Below, in pieces: positions 13,186 through 25,036 of a DNA stretch of 49,711 nucleotides. The DNA comes from a virus: the IMG/VR virus record IMGVR_UViG_3300046824_000111, positions 1 to 49,711 of that record; one strand, 5' to 3'. The translations under genes and the position numbers were made by a program. Every line of letters starts with the position of its first letter. Within the stretch, counting starts at the first letter, position 1. Below the pieces are notes generated by a model. The model was not told the DNA's origin. It saw nothing but the letters and a program-made list of their open reading frames with translations, and ran no database searches.

Positions 13186-13499
13186 ACGTTGTCGTCTTCA
13201 ACGTCGTCGCCGCCTACCAGGGCGGCGCTGGTGTATTCGCCGTCGATGATGACGTAGACGCCGAACTCTTGTACCCCGGCACCGTTGCAGTAGAGGGCTA
13301 GTCGGCCAACGGACGGGTTGAGGCCACCTTTGCCGGATTCGAGGTCGGTGGCCCAGGTGCGGCTCATTCCGGCGGCCCGGGACACTTCGCCGGCGCTGAG
13401 GTGGTTGGCTTTGCGGTGGGTGCGGATGGCGTCGATGACTGGCCTGAGCTCTTTATTGAAATCCATCTGTTTTGCCCGTCTCGTCGCTTTCGTTTTCAT
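13182..13499 (-). CDS. XRE-family helix-turn-helix regulator between terS and terL
   Basis: 105 residues from the ATG at 13499 (ATG 13469 would give 95). Residues 25-75 (AIRTHRKANHLSAGEVSRAA, GMSRTWATDLESGKGG, NPSVGRLALYCNG) form an XRE HTH, followed by a beta-rich tail (FGVYVIIDGEYTSAAL) and an acidic end. It is opposite to the flanking terminase genes and converges on terS with a four-base overlap. The operator-like repeat at 13519-13535 lies just upstream of its start. An inserted regulator or moron is likely. Confidence 0.75.
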   Translation of the reverse strand: MKTKATRRAKQMDFNKELRPVIDAIRTHRKANHLSAGEVSRAAGMSRTWATDLESGKGGLNPSVGRLALYCNGAGVQEFGVYVIIDGEYTSAALVGGDDVEDDNV

Positions 13500-13518
13500 C
13501 CGCTCAACGTGAGTGTTG

Positions 13519-13535
13519 GCGTCCAGTGACGTCCA
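13519..13535. repeat. 17-bp operator-like site, copy 2
   Basis: GCGTCCAGTGACGTCCA, one base different from 11016-11032. It sits about 20 bases upstream of the leftward XRE start and about 50 bases before the terL start, so it could control both. Confidence 0.5.
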
Positions 13536-13582
13536 GTGTCGACCATTCACTCGTTCGTGGATCAGGTGTGGGGGGTGAACCC

Positions 13583-16240
13583 ATGCCGAAACGGCTACCT
13601 GCTTGCGGGAAAACCTTCGACGACATGGAATGCACCGAGCGGGGAGACCACACCTGTAAGCCCCGCTCGGCGCACATTCAGGCGTTCTTCTCGGAAATTC
13701 TTGTCCACACCAAGGGCCGCTGGTCGCGGACGCCGTTCCACCTGCTCGACTGGCAGGTGAACGACATTATGGAGCCGCTGTTCGCCGAGGTGACCTGGTC
13801 TACGGAGTCTGAGCGGTATGTCCGTCGTTACCGTCTTGCGTGGATTGAGGTTGCCCGTAAGAACGGCAAGGCGCTCGACGTTGACACCCCCATCCTCACC
13901 GACCGGGGACCGGTACCGATGTGGGACATCCAGGTCGGCGACAAGGTGCACTCCCCGGACGGCAGCCAGGTCCCGGTTATCGCGGTAGGCCCGGTGCATC
14001 GCCGCCAGTCGTACCGGGTGCAGCTCGCCGACGGACGCAGCGTCGTCGCCAGCGACGAGCATGAGTGGCTTGTCATCGACCGGCTGCGCAGCAACAAGGC
14101 CCGCATCGTCACCACCGCCGAACTGATGGCCACCCATCGGTGCGGCGCCCGGGGTGATACCCGCTACCGGGTGCCGGTGCCGAATGAGCTCGACCGTCAA
14201 ACACCCGCCGCCCTGCCCCTGGACCCGTACCTGCTGGGTCTGTGGCTCGGCGACGGCACCACACTCCGCGGCGAGATCACCACCATGGACCCGGAAATTG
14301 TTGCCGCCATCGGCGACGCCGGCTTCCGCACCTCGTACGTCTACCAGCGGGGCCGGGCCGCCACCTACGGCATTCCCGGACTCGGAACCGTTCTCCGCCG
14401 GGTGGGGGTGCTGGGCAACAAGCACGTGCCGGACCTTTATAAGTACGCCGACGCGAAAACCCGGGCGGCTGTCCTCGCCGGGCTGATGGACACCGACGGC
14501 GGTGTAGGTGACGCCGGCAGCGTTCCTCAGGCGGACTTCTGTGGCACCCGGCGTCTCGTCGACGACATGATCTTCCTGGCCCGCTCGTTGGGCTACAAGC
14601 CTGGCCCGGCCCGGCCACACAACGGATCTTGGCGGACGACGTTCAACCCGTGCGTCACCGACGGGGTGTTTCGGCTGCCCCGCAAAAATTCCCGACTGTC
14701 CGCTGAGGCCCGGCAGGGCCGCTCGACCACTATCGCTGTGTCTTCCGTCGAACCTGTCGGTGAGCGGGACGTGCGCTGCATTCAGGTGCAGGGGGGAATG
14801 TTCCTCGCCGGACTGGATTTGGTACCCACCCACAATTCAGAGCTACTGGCTGGTATCGCCCTGTATCTATGCGTAGCGGACGACGAGGACGGGGCCGAAA
14901 TCTACGGCTGCGCCGTCGACCGCGACCAGGCCCGCAAGGTCTACGACGTCGCCGAACGCATGGTCCAGTTGAGTCCACTTCTGAGCTCCCGCCTCAAAAT
15001 CAACAAGCAGGCCAAGCGGATCTACGACACCAGCACCGGCTCCTACTACGAGGCCCTCGCCTCCGACGCCAGCGGCAACCTCGGCCACAACCCCCACGGC
15101 ATCGTCTTCGACGAAGTGCTCACCCAGAAGAACGCCGACCTGTGGAACGCCATGCGCACCGGCATGGGCGCCCGCGACCAGCCGCTGATGGTCGCTGCCA
15201 CCACCGCCGGCGCCGACCCGCAGTCCTTCGGCAAAACCGAACACGACGAGATGCAGAAGATCGCCGACGACCCGGAACGGGCCCGGCACATTTTCGTCTA
15301 CCTGCGGAACCTTCCCATGGACGCCGACCCCTGGGATGAAACCCTGTGGCCCCTCGCCAACCCGGCTCTCGGACAGTTCCTGTCGCTGCAATCACTACGC
15401 GACGAAGCCCAGGAGGCGAAGAACGATCCGGGTAAGGAGAACGCCTTCAGGCAGTTCCGGCTCAACCAGTGGGTGTCGCAGTCATCCAGGTGGATGCCCA
15501 TGCACCTGTGGGATAAGTGCACCGGGGACCTGTGGCTGAACCCGCAGTGGCACAACCGGGAACTACGGGGTCGGACCGCCTATGCGGGGTTTGACCTTGC
15601 AGCTAAATTCGACCTCACTGCATGGGCGCTGGTCATCCCAGGAGACGAGCCGAAAGAGGACCCGGCTCACATCATGTGGCGGTTCTGGCTTCCAGAGTCC
15701 GGACTGGAACGGCTTGATCAGTTTCACGACGGCAAGTTCACCCGGTGGGCCCGTCAAGGTTGGCTGACGGTGACTTCCGGCAGCGTCATCGATTACGACA
15801 AGGTGATCGACGACATAGCCGAGGATGCCAAGGAATACCGCATCGTCGCTGCCGACTGCGATGAGTGGTCCATGTGGCCCATCATCAACCGGATCGGCGA
15901 CGCGTTGAACCTCAGCATCGATGAGGGCGAACTCACCGCATACCGCAACACGTACGATCGCATGAGTCCCGGGATGACAGACCTCATGGGCACCGTCAAA
16001 CGAGGACTGCTGCGGCACCATGGCAACCCGGTTGCCCGCTTCTGTTTCGACCAATGCGAAGTCCGTATGGCGCCTTATGATCCCAACCTCATTCGTCCGG
16101 AGAAACCTGAACGGGCTCGCGACAAAGCCCGTATCGACGCCGTCCCGGCAGCGGCGATGGCCGTCAACGCCTGGAAGAGCCGCGAAGGCGTCGACCAATA
16201 CCGCAGCGCATACGAAGACGGCAACCTCATGGTGATTTGA
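13583..16240 (+). CDS. terL: Terminase large subunit, interrupted by an intein
   Basis: 885-residue precursor from the ATG at 13583 (GTG 13568 is an alternative); 563 residues after splicing. The ATPase Walker A (ARKNGK^S, where ^ marks the intein) is rebuilt on splicing; Walker B is GIVFDEV around 15100-15120, after GNLGHNPH. The nuclease part carries YAGFDLAAKFDLTAWALV and VAADCDEWSM, whose Asp residues fit the RNase H-like metal site. It is the packaging motor: ATP-driven translocation and DNA cutting at the portal. The intein sits between the catalytic Lys and Ser of Walker A, so unspliced protein cannot package. Confidence 0.95.
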   Translation: MPKRLPACGKTFDDMECTERGDHTCKPRSAHIQAFFSEILVHTKGRWSRTPFHLLDWQVNDIMEPLFAEVTWSTESERYVRRYRLAWIEVARKNGKALDVDTPILTDRGPVPMWDIQVGDKVHSPDGSQVPVIAVGPVHRRQSYRVQLADGRSVVASDEHEWLVIDRLRSNKARIVTTAELMATHRCGARGDTRYRVPVPNELDRQTPAALPLDPYLLGLWLGDGTTLRGEITTMDPEIVAAIGDAGFRTSYVYQRGRAATYGIPGLGTVLRRVGVLGNKHVPDLYKYADAKTRAAVLAGLMDTDGGVGDAGSVPQADFCGTRRLVDDMIFLARSLGYKPGPARPHNGSWRTTFNPCVTDGVFRLPRKNSRLSAEARQGRSTTIAVSSVEPVGERDVRCIQVQGGMFLAGLDLVPTHNSELLAGIALYLCVADDEDGAEIYGCAVDRDQARKVYDVAERMVQLSPLLSSRLKINKQAKRIYDTSTGSYYEALASDASGNLGHNPHGIVFDEVLTQKNADLWNAMRTGMGARDQPLMVAATTAGADPQSFGKTEHDEMQKIADDPERARHIFVYLRNLPMDADPWDETLWPLANPALGQFLSLQSLRDEAQEAKNDPGKENAFRQFRLNQWVSQSSRWMPMHLWDKCTGDLWLNPQWHNRELRGRTAYAGFDLAAKFDLTAWALVIPGDEPKEDPAHIMWRFWLPESGLERLDQFHDGKFTRWARQGWLTVTSGSVIDYDKVIDDIAEDAKEYRIVAADCDEWSMWPIINRIGDALNLSIDEGELTAYRNTYDRMSPGMTDLMGTVKRGLLRHHGNPVARFCFDQCEVRMAPYDPNLIRPEKPERARDKARIDAVPAAAMAVNAWKSREGVDQYRSAYEDGNLMVI
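13871..14836 (+). other. Class 3 (WCT) intein with LAGLIDADG homing endonuclease in TerL
   Basis: 322 residues, beginning Ala1 (ALDVDTPILT) rather than Cys/Ser and ending Thr320-His321-Asn322, with Ser as +1 extein residue. Block B has DEHEW (Trp66), block F VRCIQV (Cys303), block G VPTHN (Thr320): the Trp-Cys-Thr triad that defines class 3 inteins, in which the block F Cys attacks first. The endonuclease has LLGLWLGDG (Asp128) and LAGLMDTDG (Asp209), both catalytic Asp present, so it may still be mobile. Class 3 inteins are known in actinophage terminases (for example mycobacteriophage Bethlehem). Confidence 0.92.
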
Positions 16241-16766: not shown

Positions 16767-17027
16767 TCACCGGAAGTCCTTGACGTTGCCGATCAGCCGG
16801 TCCGCTGTCACCTTCGTCGCCGCGCAAGGGATACATAACGGCACTACCCGCTTGCGCAGGATGATCCGGAAAGAGTCGGTGTCGAGCCAACACCAGTGGC
16901 TGCATCCTTTGCACCGGGTTTGGCCGGCAACCTCGAAGTCGGGCTTGCCGTCGTCGACAAGCTGGACAACGACTACAACGCTCACGGCCGGGCACTCCTC
17001 AAGGTCAGCATTTACATCTCTCCGCAT
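16767..17027 (-). CDS. Small zinc-ribbon-like protein
   Basis: 86 residues from the ATG at 17027. Contains TRCKGCSHWCWL and later LCIPCAATK, giving a four-Cys ribbon, preceded by a hydrophobic strand (AVSVVVVVQLVDDGK). Overlaps the upstream gene by 23 bases. Unknown function. Confidence 0.55.
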   Translation of the reverse strand: MRRDVNADLEECPAVSVVVVVQLVDDGKPDFEVAGQTRCKGCSHWCWLDTDSFRIILRKRVVPLCIPCAATKVTADRLIGNVKDFR

Positions 17028-17196
17028 GCTCGGTGGCCCGGCCGTTGACCTGCACCAGGTCCATCGGGGCTTCGACTTCGACCATCCACATGCACCGGGT
17101 GCATTCGATGGCCAGGAACACCGCATGGTCGGTGGCGACCACATCAATAAGGAACTGCGGCTCATGTTCCGGCTCCGGCGACAGCGTGTCAGTCAT
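17005..17196 (-). CDS. CCHC small zinc-finger protein (phage family, copy A)
   Basis: 63 residues from the ATG at 17196. FLIDVVATDHAVFLAIEC, CTRCMW, then about 19 residues and ATEHAERC: the CxxCxW...A(T/M)(D/E)HxxxC arrangement also seen in the adjacent gene and in 45875-46345. Single zinc site predicted. Function unknown; see findings. Confidence 0.62.
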   Translation of the reverse strand: MTDTLSPEPEHEPQFLIDVVATDHAVFLAIECTRCMWMVEVEAPMDLVQVNGRATEHAERCKC

Positions 17197-17380
17197 GGGT
17201 GCACACCTTCGCGTGGTCGGTGGCCTTCCTCGCCAGATCGAACAGGTTGTACGGGGGATCGACCCCGCCGATCCAGTTGCAGACCTTGCACTGGATGACA
17301 AGGAACTCTTTAGCGACGACGACAGCCTGGAAGCCGGTCAGGAAGACCATGCCGACAGGGCCCTCCGGCTCTCCGCTCAT
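17189..17380 (-). CDS. CCHC small zinc-finger protein (phage family, copy B)
   Basis: 63 residues from the ATG at 17380. AVVVAKEFLVIQCKVCNW then ARKATDHAKVCTHD repeats the CxxCxW...ATxHxxxC signature of its neighbour, so the two are tandem paralogues. Starts overlap neighbouring genes, supporting expression as an operon. Confidence 0.62.
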   Translation of the reverse strand: MSGEPEGPVGMVFLTGFQAVVVAKEFLVIQCKVCNWIGGVDPPYNLFDLARKATDHAKVCTHD

Positions 17381-17640
17381 CGGTTGGCCTTCGCGTCGTG
17401 GATGACCCAGGCGACCAGGATGAACCCGACGACGAAAACCCAGAAGCCGATCTTGGCCGCATCCCACCACAACACCCAGTACGCCTTACGCAGCGGACTC
17501 ACCTTGCCTTTCGTGTCCTTGTAGTCAGCGTTGGCCCGGCTTACCTTCGCCTTCAGGACACCGAAGGAGAACACCGTCGAGCTGATCAGGATGGCGATCA
17601 GGGTGCCCACCAGGACCGGGCTGGAATCACCCCCGCTCAC
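17377..17640 (-). CDS. Membrane protein (two TM segments)
   Basis: 87 residues; GTG at 17640. TM1 about residues 8-28 (VLVGTLIAILISSTVFSFGV), a charged cytoplasmic loop (KAKVSRANADYKDTKGKVSP), then TM2 about 60-80 (IGFWVFVVGFILVAWVI). Overlaps both neighbours. Function unknown. Confidence 0.62.
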   Translation of the reverse strand: MSGGDSSPVLVGTLIAILISSTVFSFGVLKAKVSRANADYKDTKGKVSPLRKAYWVLWWDAAKIGFWVFVVGFILVAWVIHDAKANR

Positions 17641-20768: not shown

Positions 20769-22049
20769 ATGCGTAAGACCATCCGAGACGCGATCCTGGC
20801 GGAAACCAACGCTGCCAAGGGGATCCTCGACACTGTAGAACGTGAAGAGCGCGGCATCACCGACGTCGAGAAGGACACCATCGACGGCCACATGAAGAAG
20901 GCCGAAGATCTACGGTCCGGCGCCGCCCGAGAAGCCGCCTTCAAGACCCAAATGACGGACCTGTCCACCGGGCTGGGCCTGGGCGACGACCCGACCAAGA
21001 CCGATGAGGAGACGATCCGCCGGGTCGGCAAGGCCCTGTCGGCGGGCGAGAAGTTCACCACCTCCACCGAGTACAAGTCGCTGATCGGTTCGGTCCCCAA
21101 CGGCTCCTTCGGCGAGAAGTACCGGGTCCAGAGCCAGCCCATGCAGATCGGCTCGATGAAGTCGCTGCTGACCTCCGGCGACCACACCGTCTCCGGTGGT
21201 ATCACCATCAACCCCGACCACCAGGGTCTGCTGTCGCCGTTCTACGAGCGGCCCCTGACGGTCCGGGGGCTGTTCCAGTCGGGTAGCACCACCTCGGACA
21301 CCATCGACTACGTCCGGATGATCAACACCGTCAACAATGCGGCGCCGGTCAAGGAAGCCACCAGCTCCGCCTTCGTCGACGGCACCACCGTCACCCCCGT
21401 CATGGGCGGCGTCAAGCCCGAGTCGGGCTTCACCTTCCAGCGCGACTCGACGACGGTGAAGACCATCGCGCACTGGATGCCGATCACCAAGCGGGCCCTG
21501 TCCGACGTCGGGCAGATCCGCACCATGATCGACTCATTCCTGCGGTACGGCCTCGAAGAGGAACTCGAAGACCAGCTCTTGACTGGGACAGGCGCCGGTG
21601 AGAACTTCCTTGGCCTCAACAGCACCCCCGGCATCCAGACCCAGGCAGCCGGCACTGACGCCCTCGACACGACCCGCAAGGCCCGCACGAAGGTCCAGAT
21701 TGGGGGCCGGGCGCAGCCGACGGCGTATGTGATGAACCCGCTGGACTGGGAGGCGGCCGAGCTGCTTCGCGACACCACCGGCAACTACTACGGCGGGGGC
21801 CCGTTCGCCCTCACCACCCCCCGCCTGTGGGGCCTGCCGGTAGTCCAGTCCGAGGCTGTTCCGCCGAAGACCGCCTGGTGTGCCGCCTGGAATTGGGGAG
21901 TCGTCTACGACCGGGAACAGGCCACCGTCACCGCAACAGACAGTCACGCCGACTTCTTCGTCAGGAACCTCGTCGCAATCCTTGCCGAGCTCCGCTGCGC
22001 ATTCGCCGTCCTGCGCCCGTCGGCATTCGTGAAGATCACCCTGCCGTGA
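20769..22049 (+). CDS. Major capsid protein (HK97 fold)
   Basis: 426 residues. Residues 1-65 are a helical, Glu/Lys-rich delta domain (scaffold) and the body carries SGDHTVSGGITINPDH, GVKPESGFTFQRDSTTVKTI (E-loop and P-domain), AHWMPITKRALSDV and LLTGTGAGENFLGL, all usual in this family. The C-terminal DREQATVTATDSHADFFVRN plus LVAILAELRCAFAVLRPSAF ends the A domain. Most abundant late gene product. Confidence 0.94.
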   Translation: MRKTIRDAILAETNAAKGILDTVEREERGITDVEKDTIDGHMKKAEDLRSGAAREAAFKTQMTDLSTGLGLGDDPTKTDEETIRRVGKALSAGEKFTTSTEYKSLIGSVPNGSFGEKYRVQSQPMQIGSMKSLLTSGDHTVSGGITINPDHQGLLSPFYERPLTVRGLFQSGSTTSDTIDYVRMINTVNNAAPVKEATSSAFVDGTTVTPVMGGVKPESGFTFQRDSTTVKTIAHWMPITKRALSDVGQIRTMIDSFLRYGLEEELEDQLLTGTGAGENFLGLNSTPGIQTQAAGTDALDTTRKARTKVQIGGRAQPTAYVMNPLDWEAAELLRDTTGNYYGGGPFALTTPRLWGLPVVQSEAVPPKTAWCAAWNWGVVYDREQATVTATDSHADFFVRNLVAILAELRCAFAVLRPSAFVKITLP

Positions 22050-22258
22050 CCCACCCGAACACCCAAGCCCTACTCGACTACTTCTCCTACGAACACCTAC
22101 CCGCCGGATCTGCCATGCGGGAAACGTCCGCCATCTGCGCCGACGTCGCCCAAACAATGGTCCGGCACCTACCACCCGGCCCCGAAGTTACTGCCGGGCT
22201 GCGCAAGCTCCTCGAAGCTAAGGACTGTTTCGTCCGCGCCAGCCTGCCGAAGAAGTGA
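22046..22258 (+). CDS. Acb2/Tad1-hairpin-like small protein (candidate anti-CBASS)
   Basis: 70 residues; GTG at 22046 overlapping the capsid stop (GTGA). The sequence LLDYFSYEHLPAG, then AQTMVRHLPPGPEVTAGLRK and LLEAKDCFVRASLPKK matches the short actinophage family built around P(G/N)PExTxxLRKLLEAKDxxVRA, which belongs to the Acb2/Tad1-type helical hairpin proteins. Acb2 binds cyclic-nucleotide signals and blocks CBASS (and in related cases Thoeris) signalling. Placement after the capsid gene is common for the family. Ligand binding here is inferred only from the sequence pattern. Confidence 0.65.
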   Translation: MTHPNTQALLDYFSYEHLPAGSAMRETSAICADVAQTMVRHLPPGPEVTAGLRKLLEAKDCFVRASLPKK

Positions 22259-22740
22259 ACGTCTACTGCCGAATCTGCGGTGCGGCAGGGGCAGCGTGCG
22301 GTGACAGCCACCAAAGCCTGCCCCTGCTCACCGCCGACGCATTTTTCAGAGGAGCGAGAATGACCGACCCGCAGAAGACCGCCCAGCCGTCCATGAAGGG
22401 CGACGAGAAGGCGGCACCGCAGGAGGTTCCGGCGGACGAGCCCATTCCGCTGGAGGAATACCACTACTACGTCGGCTACATGGAAACCACCGCCATGATG
22501 ACCCCCGAAATGGCCGAACAGGTCGGTGCCGTCCCCATCGACGAGCCCCTCGACGAGCCCGACGGCGGGAAGAAGGGCAACAACGAGGCGAACCGGCTCT
22601 CCACCCGCAACCGGGAAGCCGACGACGCCGGGGTCACCAACAAGGACAACGAGGACGCCCGGGACAAGGCCCGCAACGCCCGCAACAAGCGGGCCACCGG
22701 CAGTGGCGGGCCCGGCGACTCCGGCGACCGGCAGCGGTAA
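22255..22740 (+). CDS. Head protein with N-terminal Cys motif and charged low-complexity tail
   Basis: 161 residues from GTG 22255, overlapping the previous stop. CRICGAAGAACGD resembles the CRxCGAxxAACG start of actinophage head-region proteins. An internal ATG at 22360 with GAGGAGCGAGA could produce a second, 126-residue form lacking the Cys motif. The rest is Pro/Glu-rich (EKAAPQEVPADEPIPLEE) and a charged RDKARNARNKRATGSGG tail, likely disordered. Role in the head is unknown. Confidence 0.65.
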   Translation: MNVYCRICGAAGAACGDSHQSLPLLTADAFFRGARMTDPQKTAQPSMKGDEKAAPQEVPADEPIPLEEYHYYVGYMETTAMMTPEMAEQVGAVPIDEPLDEPDGGKKGNNEANRLSTRNREADDAGVTNKDNEDARDKARNARNKRATGSGGPGDSGDRQR

Positions 22741-22745
22741 ACCCT

Positions 22746-23276
22746 ATGGATCCGCTCGCCACCGTCAGCGAGCTGGAGATCTACCTAGGGCGGACCCTCG
22801 ACGACCAGGTGCAAGCCGAAGCGGCACTAACCCTGGCGTCGGGGGCCGTCCGCGCCTACTGCGGGTGGGATCTCTCGTTCCAAGCCGAAACGATGCATTT
22901 CGAAGGTGCGAAGAACTCCCTGATCACCTTGCCCACCCTGGAACTGCTCAACATCATCGAAACCCGGGCCGACGGGATCATCCTCGACCCCGCCGAATAC
23001 CCCATCAACTACTCCCGCAAAGGTCAGGTGTGGGGGTGCTGGGGATACCGCACCCAATACGAATTCGATGTCGAACACGGATACGACCCGGTACCCGACG
23101 TTCTCAAACTCGTCACCATGGATTTGACGCAGCGGCAGCTCAGCAACCCGGAAGGGCTGCAATCGGCCACCGTCGGGCAGGTCACCAAAACCTGGGGCTC
23201 ATCGTCGACAACCGGCGGCAGCACTTCCGGCATGTCGACGTTGCATTCCGCCCTCCTCGATCGTTACAGCATTTGA
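22746..23276 (+). CDS. Head-tail connector (HK97 gp6-like adaptor)
   Basis: 176 residues. The first 60 residues (SELEIYLGRTLDDQVQAEAA, LTLASGAVRAYCGWDL) are the typical helical start of adaptor proteins that dock on the portal; ILDPAEYPINYSRKG, FDVEHGYDPVPDVLKLVT continue the family. The C-terminal Ser/Thr-rich segment (WGSSSTTGGSTSG) is a flexible loop. Confidence 0.85.
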   Translation: MDPLATVSELEIYLGRTLDDQVQAEAALTLASGAVRAYCGWDLSFQAETMHFEGAKNSLITLPTLELLNIIETRADGIILDPAEYPINYSRKGQVWGCWGYRTQYEFDVEHGYDPVPDVLKLVTMDLTQRQLSNPEGLQSATVGQVTKTWGSSSTTGGSTSGMSTLHSALLDRYSI

Positions 23277-24445: not shown

Positions 24446-25036
24446 GTGGCTGACTTCAACGCCGCCGCAGTCCGATTCGGAAAGCCGGGCAAGCTGTACA
24501 TCGCTCCGACCGACACCCTCGGAGTACCCACCGTCGAACCCGCCACCTGCATCGCCGCCTGGGGCACCGAATGGGTGCCCCTCGGCTACACCGATGAGGG
24601 TTCCGTCTTCAACTACGAGGTAAGCACCGACAACGTAGAAGTGGCCGAAGAACTCGACCCGCTCGCCCGGGTTACCACCGGCCGCGACGCCAGCATCGAA
24701 TTCGCCCTCGCCGAAATCACCCTGAAGAACCTGACGATCGCCTTCAACGGCGGCATTATCGACGACACCGACACCGGCACCGCCTGGGATTTCGAACCCC
24801 CAGACCTCGGCAACGAACAGCGCGTCATGATCGGCTGGGACGCCATCAACGACGTCACCAAGAACGACCTCCGAATCATTTTCCGGCGCTGCCTCCAAGG
24901 CGGATCCATCGGTATGGAAAACCGTAAGGGTGTGCAGAAGTCGCTCATCTCCGCGAACTTCCAACTCGAAAAGCCCCTCGACGGCCGCCCACTGCTGAAG
25001 ATCCTCGGTGGTGCCAACCTCAACCCGGCGCCGTGA
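24446..25036 (+). CDS. Major tail (tube) protein
   Basis: 196 residues. GTG at 24446 with AAGGAA upstream, immediately after the terminator. VRFGKPGKLYIAPTDTLGVP, GTEWVPLGYTDEGSVFNYEV, VAEELDPLARVTTGRDASIE match actinophage major tail proteins. Forms the tube through which DNA and tape measure pass. Confidence 0.88.
   Translation: MADFNAAAVRFGKPGKLYIAPTDTLGVPTVEPATCIAAWGTEWVPLGYTDEGSVFNYEVSTDNVEVAEELDPLARVTTGRDASIEFALAEITLKNLTIAFNGGIIDDTDTGTAWDFEPPDLGNEQRVMIGWDAINDVTKNDLRIIFRRCLQGGSIGMENRKGVQKSLISANFQLEKPLDGRPLLKILGGANLNPAP

Follow-up and report, generated by a model that had tools for sequence, protein, structure and literature searches.

What does a tailed phage gain from a very small helical protein whose gene overlaps the stop codon of the major capsid gene? 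We examined this question for a gene in a virus record of IMG/VR that is 49,711 bases long, comes without a host genome and is called the window here. Our analysis places the gene product in a sister branch of the Acb2/Tad1 hairpin superfamily, one that is large, has no annotation and is present in phages of many bacteria. The gene probably helps the phage to silence host defenses, which makes counter-defense its candidate function.

Gene, operon and genomic context

The frame at 22046-22258 (+) encodes the product VTHPNTQALLDYFSYEHLPAGSAMRETSAICADVAQTMVRHLPPGPEVTAGLRKLLEAKDCFVRASLPKK. A previous description of this DNA, made from its letters and open reading frames (the sequence-only reading), had reported a 70-residue protein with an LRKLLEAKDxxVRA signature, translationally coupled to the capsid gene. 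Translation bears out the protein, with LRKLLEAKDCFVRA at residues 52-65. The end of the capsid gene, with its TGA, and the start of the hairpin gene, with its GTG, have 4 bases in common, and the upstream ORF encodes a capsid protein of the HK97 type (Table 1). The profile matches nearby comprise terminase, portal, head maturation protease, head-tail adaptor, neck, tail terminator and tail protein. With terminase-to-tail matches on both sides, the hairpin gene is thus part of a tailed-phage late structural operon.

Table 1. Positions of the hairpin gene, its neighbors and its predicted elements in the window
Feature	Position	Strand	Basis
Hairpin-protein gene, 70 aa, GTG start, TGA stop	22046..22258	+	Translation, relatives, dN/dS
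GTGA, hairpin-gene start overlapping capsid stop	22046..22049	+	Sequence; compared with L001, L003, L005 and L006
HK97-type major capsid protein gene (context)	20769..22049	+	Pfam PF05065, 7e-37; phrog_10
Next operon ORF (context)	22255..22740	+	GTGA overlap with hairpin stop; Cys-rich start
Head-tail adaptor gene (context)	22746..23276	+	phrog_442, 3.7e-25
Predicted short N-terminal helix, residues 4-13	22055..22084	+	Model
Predicted first long hairpin helix, residues 23-41	22112..22168	+	Model
Predicted second long hairpin helix, residues 46-66	22181..22243	+	Model
Signature LRKLLEAKDCFVRA, residues 52-65, including K59 and R64	22199..22240	+	Alignment of 208 sequences

The ORF behind the hairpin gene begins with a Cys-rich stretch, NVYCRICGAAGAACGDSH (22255-22359, +), which starts at the GTGA overlap with the hairpin stop and continues in frame into the next gene. 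The latter has its own AGAGGAG-ATG at 22360, in frame with the Cys-rich start, and this start is retained in loci L001, L003, L004 and L006. The single frame 22255-22740 possibly gives two products.

The hairpin ORF is a real conserved gene and not a chance ORF, as is evident from its many relatives, its selection and the retained order of capsid and hairpin genes. Relatives are encoded by 510 of 517 pattern-matched IMG/VR stretches and by at least 587 stretches from a second pattern search (599 listed); the species genomes contributed 65 loci with relatives. Purifying selection on the gene is strong: relative to the nearest relative (96% protein identity), most differences are at silent sites (dN 0.026, dS 0.548, dN/dS 0.048). 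In each of the six closest loci, L001 to L006, the capsid gene comes before the hairpin gene. The two genes meet in GTGA in L001 and L003, as they do in the window, and in ATGA in L005 and L006.

Could the protein then be a minor component of the virion or a head-completion protein? Its gene lies between the capsid and head-tail adaptor genes in the window, L001, L003, L004 and L006, and Gordonia phage Ruthy has a family member between its capsid and connector genes. However, Gordonia phage Jumbo and Brevibacterium phage AGM2 have their members amid lysis genes. Other members are flanked by minor tail genes in Gustav, sit amid small hypothetical genes close to repressor or RNase E in BigNuz and Nigel, and adjoin the DNA topoisomerase gene in the T4-like Acinetobacter phage ZZ1. 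Moreover, at the tblastn sensitivity used (E up to 0.01), just 347 of 50,697 phage records have the gene. We consider a virion role quite improbable. A jumbo Erwinia phage carries its member amid hypothetical genes. Because the family occurs in unrelated phages at differing places, these shifting positions fit the behavior of a phage cargo gene. The signature is not specific to actinophages, as the sequence-only reading had it; it is present in phages of Vibrio, Erwinia, Acinetobacter, Alteromonas, Ochrobactrum and others.

Two further observations concern individual members. In Brevibacterium phages 1T, 4T, 1C and AGM11 (around 24530-24754) the matching stretch exceeds that of AGM2 in length and overlies an annotated repeated sequence. 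Stenomitos rutilans, a cyanobacterial genome bin, has two copies (L127 and L129) about 100 kb apart on one contig.

Direct searches and remote homology

The window protein matched no Pfam or NCBIfam model and had no credible match to a solved structure by sequence search; in PHROGs it matched phrog_5120 (2e-25) and phrog_1761 (7e-20), both of unknown function. A search with the Pfam model of the Acb2/Tad1 hairpin, PF24729 (Acb2_Tad1_hairpin), had been suggested as a check of an Acb2/Tad1-type identity. This model matched neither the protein itself nor any of its 34 close members. At E up to 1 it matched 3 of 67 broad members (best 0.011), from which unrelated models collected equally many weak matches (Occludin_ELL 5 members, HEAT_2 3). 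The best match seen, that of the AGM2 member, is in register (E 0.011, 16.4 bits) and falls below the curated cut-off of 27 bits. Positive controls behaved as such, T4 Vs.4 (an Acb2) scoring 71.4 bits and all 48 sequences of alignment A6 matching. PF24729 also matched in 1 of the 39 genomes that carry the window family and in 8 of 349 genomes from the phylum to which G030 belongs (the genome with the Acinetobacter locus L123). Among 346 genomes from the phylum of G020 (Mycolicibacterium locus L107) it was silent, and since the controls were silent too, this set is uninformative on absence.

The homology is seen through profile-profile comparison and broader alignments, not through searches with the single protein or its near relatives. 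The alignments used, A1 (34 sequences), A4 (95), A5 (67), A6 (48) and A7 (39), are chosen subsets of the fetched loci. L104 and L144 (too short), identical copies and L146-L148 were excluded, and A4 is without L057 (which has a stop codon), L096, L097, L098, L110 and L137. The PF24729 proteins, 48 of which make up A6, were gathered from genomes and then by similarity from viral contigs. Compared with these stand-alone PF24729 proteins in hhalign, the window family reached a probability of 91.4%. The value was 91.8% for A4, 93.3% when the broader A5 was used and 94.5% for A7, the branch that an Ochrobactrum-phage protein had brought up. Against PF24729 sequences led by T4 Vs.4, the probability was only 58%.

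The aligned core is short (29 to 38 columns) and full of common helix residues, and the likeness to PF24729 might accordingly be read as convergence of two short amphipathic helical hairpins. Yet the controls score lower: the best of 200 (199 column shuffles and one reversal) gave 19.8 and the reversal 13.7, against 34.7 for the real alignment. Thirteen other ORF clusters compared with the PF24729 family also stayed lower (best score 23.1), which is a weaker control because 8 of these clusters consist mainly of family genes read in other frames; the remaining 5 are largely independent and reached 11.5. Reciprocal matches point the same way. They were obtained over 13,554 ORFs from the fetched loci, with family labels assigned by place; many of these ORFs are spurious frames and not real helical proteins, so the search is not equivalent to one of real proteins. 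At E up to 1, the family profile matched every one of the 126 family ORFs, 56 of the 76 PF24729 ORFs (best 4.5e-5) and four others, namely, one decoy at 0.76 and three broken or divergent copies in the family loci L057, L104 and L144. The PF24729 profile in turn matched all 76 of its own ORFs, 68 of the 126 family ORFs (best 7.5e-5) and three others, one of which is the ORF in L104. In both directions, the other family is thus the first to come up once a profile's own members are passed. The AGM2 member as an intermediate sequence and the predicted fold (see below) argue against convergence as well, and we regard it as highly improbable. As judged from the profiles, the window family is homologous to the PF24729 hairpins, in one register.

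The PF24729 hub profile in turn leads further, to Tad1 (E 0.001) and to Acb2 homolog 43, a PDB entry of 76 aa in six chains (E 0.0014). Window-family profiles, including A7 alone, found no Acb2 in the PDB, and the mixed profile A5 reached Acb2 homolog 43 at an E-value of 1.3 only.

Predicted structure

The AlphaFold2 monomer model of the window protein has a mean pLDDT of 93.4 and consists of the three helices listed in Table 1. Acb2 is described as a short N-terminal helix followed by two long antiparallel helices (PMC12043709), and the predicted fold of the window protein has this arrangement. Among predicted viral structures, 9 of the 50 matches listed bear Acb2/Tad1 hairpin names. The first of these, at rank 7, belongs to Providencia phage PS3 (probability 1.00, TM 0.65/0.69, E 0.093). 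Ranks 1 to 6 look like members of the protein's own family, and rank 3 (Ochrobactrum phage OH) is the one among them tied to it by sequence.

With solved structures, Foldseek returned generic helical proteins for the window model and no Acb2 among the best 50 of 73 matches. VIA-align likewise gave no Acb2 among the 50 entries listed of 266 chains with Z of 2 or more; the Z scores of up to 7.0 are within the level given by the tool for models that lack a clear match. A control model of the stand-alone PF24729 family placed Vs.4 first, with Acb2 among the matches listed; the solved Acb2 structures 7UQ2 and 8H2J were listed for this control but not for the window model. The control model, built from a trimmed alignment, shows the hairpin only, whereas the window model includes the N-terminal helix. 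Hence, the proposed Acb2/Tad1-type identity stands as a remote superfamily relationship, carried by the profiles, the helix architecture and the viral structural neighbors, and it does not extend to a direct PF24729 match.

Comparison with known systems

Window-family and stand-alone PF24729 phage proteins are alike in length (about 60 to 70 aa), in forming a helical hairpin and in being phage cargo. Their common spacing runs from an aromatic start to a helix in which LA precedes a Pro by eight residues, after which E, S/T, A/G, L, K, L, E and A follow at fixed steps (P-x-x-x-E-x-S/T-x-A/G-L-x-K-L-x-E-A). They differ at their ends: the stand-alone proteins have a YHPP-Q-RY-R start and a VMWANAAIAR end, the window family instead F-x-Y-x-HLP and KDxxVR. 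Unlike the former, the window family scores below the Pfam cut-off. To the C-terminal hairpin of Tad1 (7UAV, 8KBG) it is connected via the PF24729 hub profile. Tad1 is described as a fusion of an N-terminal beta-sheet domain to the hairpin (PMC12043709); such a domain is absent from the window protein.

We considered filing the protein as Acb2 or as Tad1 and rejected both, the first because it falls short of the 27 bits of PF24729 and the second because the model of its 70 residues is all-helical and has no N-terminal beta-sheet domain.

Actinophage genes have been annotated as Acb2 before, namely, Statler gp57 (PMC13348362) and genes of Xandras and BigBubba (PMC11953737). We assume these to be of the stand-alone PF24729 type. 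Searches of open-licence PMC papers by family signature and by PHROG and Pfam numbers returned no paper on the window family, and general searches for Acb2 and sponges in the same literature listed no title naming it. None of the 60 + 60 tblastn matches listed (overlapping sets) is named a sponge or Acb2; the names among them include hypothetical protein, a bare gene number, occludin homology, Rz and anti-TRAP.

Conserved residues and the putative ligand site

The sequence-only reading had associated LRKLLEAKDxxVRA with Acb2/Tad1-type sponges. We found it to be the hallmark of the window branch instead, as the T4 Vs.4 and Tad1 hairpins read differently there. K59 is present in 208 of 208 aligned sequences and R64 in 206, counts that are inflated for the signature because sets W and P were fetched partly by patterns within LLEAKDCF or LESKDAAV. 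In 13 phage proteins hand-picked from the tblastn match lists, K59 is kept in all and R64 in 12, and positions C61 and F62 are variable.

In T4 Vs.4, residues Y8, H11, K23, R79 and F82 are reported to contact cGAMP, the S74N exchange to disturb binding, and L29, A66, A73 and A77 to hold the hexamer together (PMC10097602). The Vs.4 alignment spans residues 19-58 only, and the later correspondences, K59 and R64 included, are an ungapped extension. Read in this way, the window protein shares with Acb2 the predicted helix layout, the arginine at R79 (R64) and small residues at two hexamer positions (A66 is G51, A73 is A58). It differs in that K23 is replaced by S28, F82 by L67 and A77 by F62, in being shorter and in having no direct sequence match. 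S74 corresponds to K59, so that both S74 and R79 are represented by invariant or near-invariant basic residues, and Y8 may correspond to Y15, which was matched by eye; H11 is without an assigned counterpart. Positions 51 and 58 are highly conserved as Gly and Ala; one branch often has Ala at the former and Ser at the latter. In the Ochrobactrum-phage-type branch, Ala stands at the position of F62 in 60 of 63 sequences and, as in Vs.4, at position 51 in 58 of 63. H17, S28, K59 and R64 are invariant or nearly so in the family.

The proposed likeness to the cyclic-nucleotide sponge Vs.4 is therefore partial, extending to R79 but not to K23 or F82. The retention of K59 and R64, also in the 13 tblastn-derived phage members, makes a basic ligand site on the second helix plausible, with details unlike those of Vs.4. 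As K23 and F82 are replaced, the ligand may differ from that of Vs.4.

Partial retention of these residues also suits a different reading, in which the protein is a true superfamily homologue that does not bind immune nucleotides and acts as a regulator or host-takeover adaptor by binding protein or RNA. The RKLxEAKD run is exceptionally conserved across the family, and some members are fused to other regions, both of which would agree with such a function. In Ochrobactrum phage OH gp62 (L254:765-1133) the hairpin is joined to a DnaJ/Anti-TRAP-like zinc ribbon (sub-threshold in Pfam) and in Gordonia phage Clawz gp27 (L248:2198-2710) to an unrecognized N-terminal region. However, 13 annotated examples show no common named neighbor, the neighbors often being hypothetical, and Tad1, a known sponge, likewise combines the hairpin with another domain (PMC12043709). 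In our estimate a regulator or adaptor is unlikely.

Proposed role

We modestly favor the reading that the window protein is an oligomeric hairpin protein of this sister branch which sequesters a cyclic nucleotide alarm molecule. Most likely, it would be an oligomeric sponge for a nucleotide signal, made late together with the capsid. We hypothesize that it assembles into an oligomer, probably a hexamer, via the small second-helix residues G51 and A58, and that pockets between the subunits, lined by Y15, H17, K59 and R64, would hold a phosphate-bearing signal. Sequestration of the alarm molecule would then keep the host's suicide effector off. The ligand would most likely be a CBASS product, with the cyclic ADPR of Thoeris as a possible second guess. 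Translation presumably coupled to that of the capsid gene would supply the sponge in stoichiometric amounts, that is, those a sponge needs, at the time when the capsid is made. Some defense systems are triggered by capsid proteins.

It is also possible, though doubtful, that the family forms a further major branch of hairpin sponges, with a pocket re-shaped (K59, R64, H17 and S28) to trap an immune signal that differs from the cyclic di- and trinucleotides to which Acb2 binds, perhaps one yet undescribed, and with some members carrying extra domains. If the sponge reading is correct, hundreds of phage genes, most of them called hypothetical protein, turn into candidates for counter-defense, and the sponge superfamily extends over more sequence diversity and more hosts than its Pfam model shows. 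From a pocket that is conserved and yet different, one might then learn which immune signals are important in the bacteria that these phages infect.

Other features of the window

Two features upstream of the capsid gene were observed in addition. The large subunit of the terminase (13472-16240, +) is apparently split by an intein-like insert: its terminase matches cover residues 44-135 and 455-916, and residues ~124-350 also match terminase, primase and helicase-loader profiles, which may hold inteins themselves. Between the terminase and portal genes, and opposite in direction to the late operon, lie two minus-strand ORFs (17005-17470, -) that overlap as called, look like paralogues by eye and have a CxxC...HxxxC pattern.
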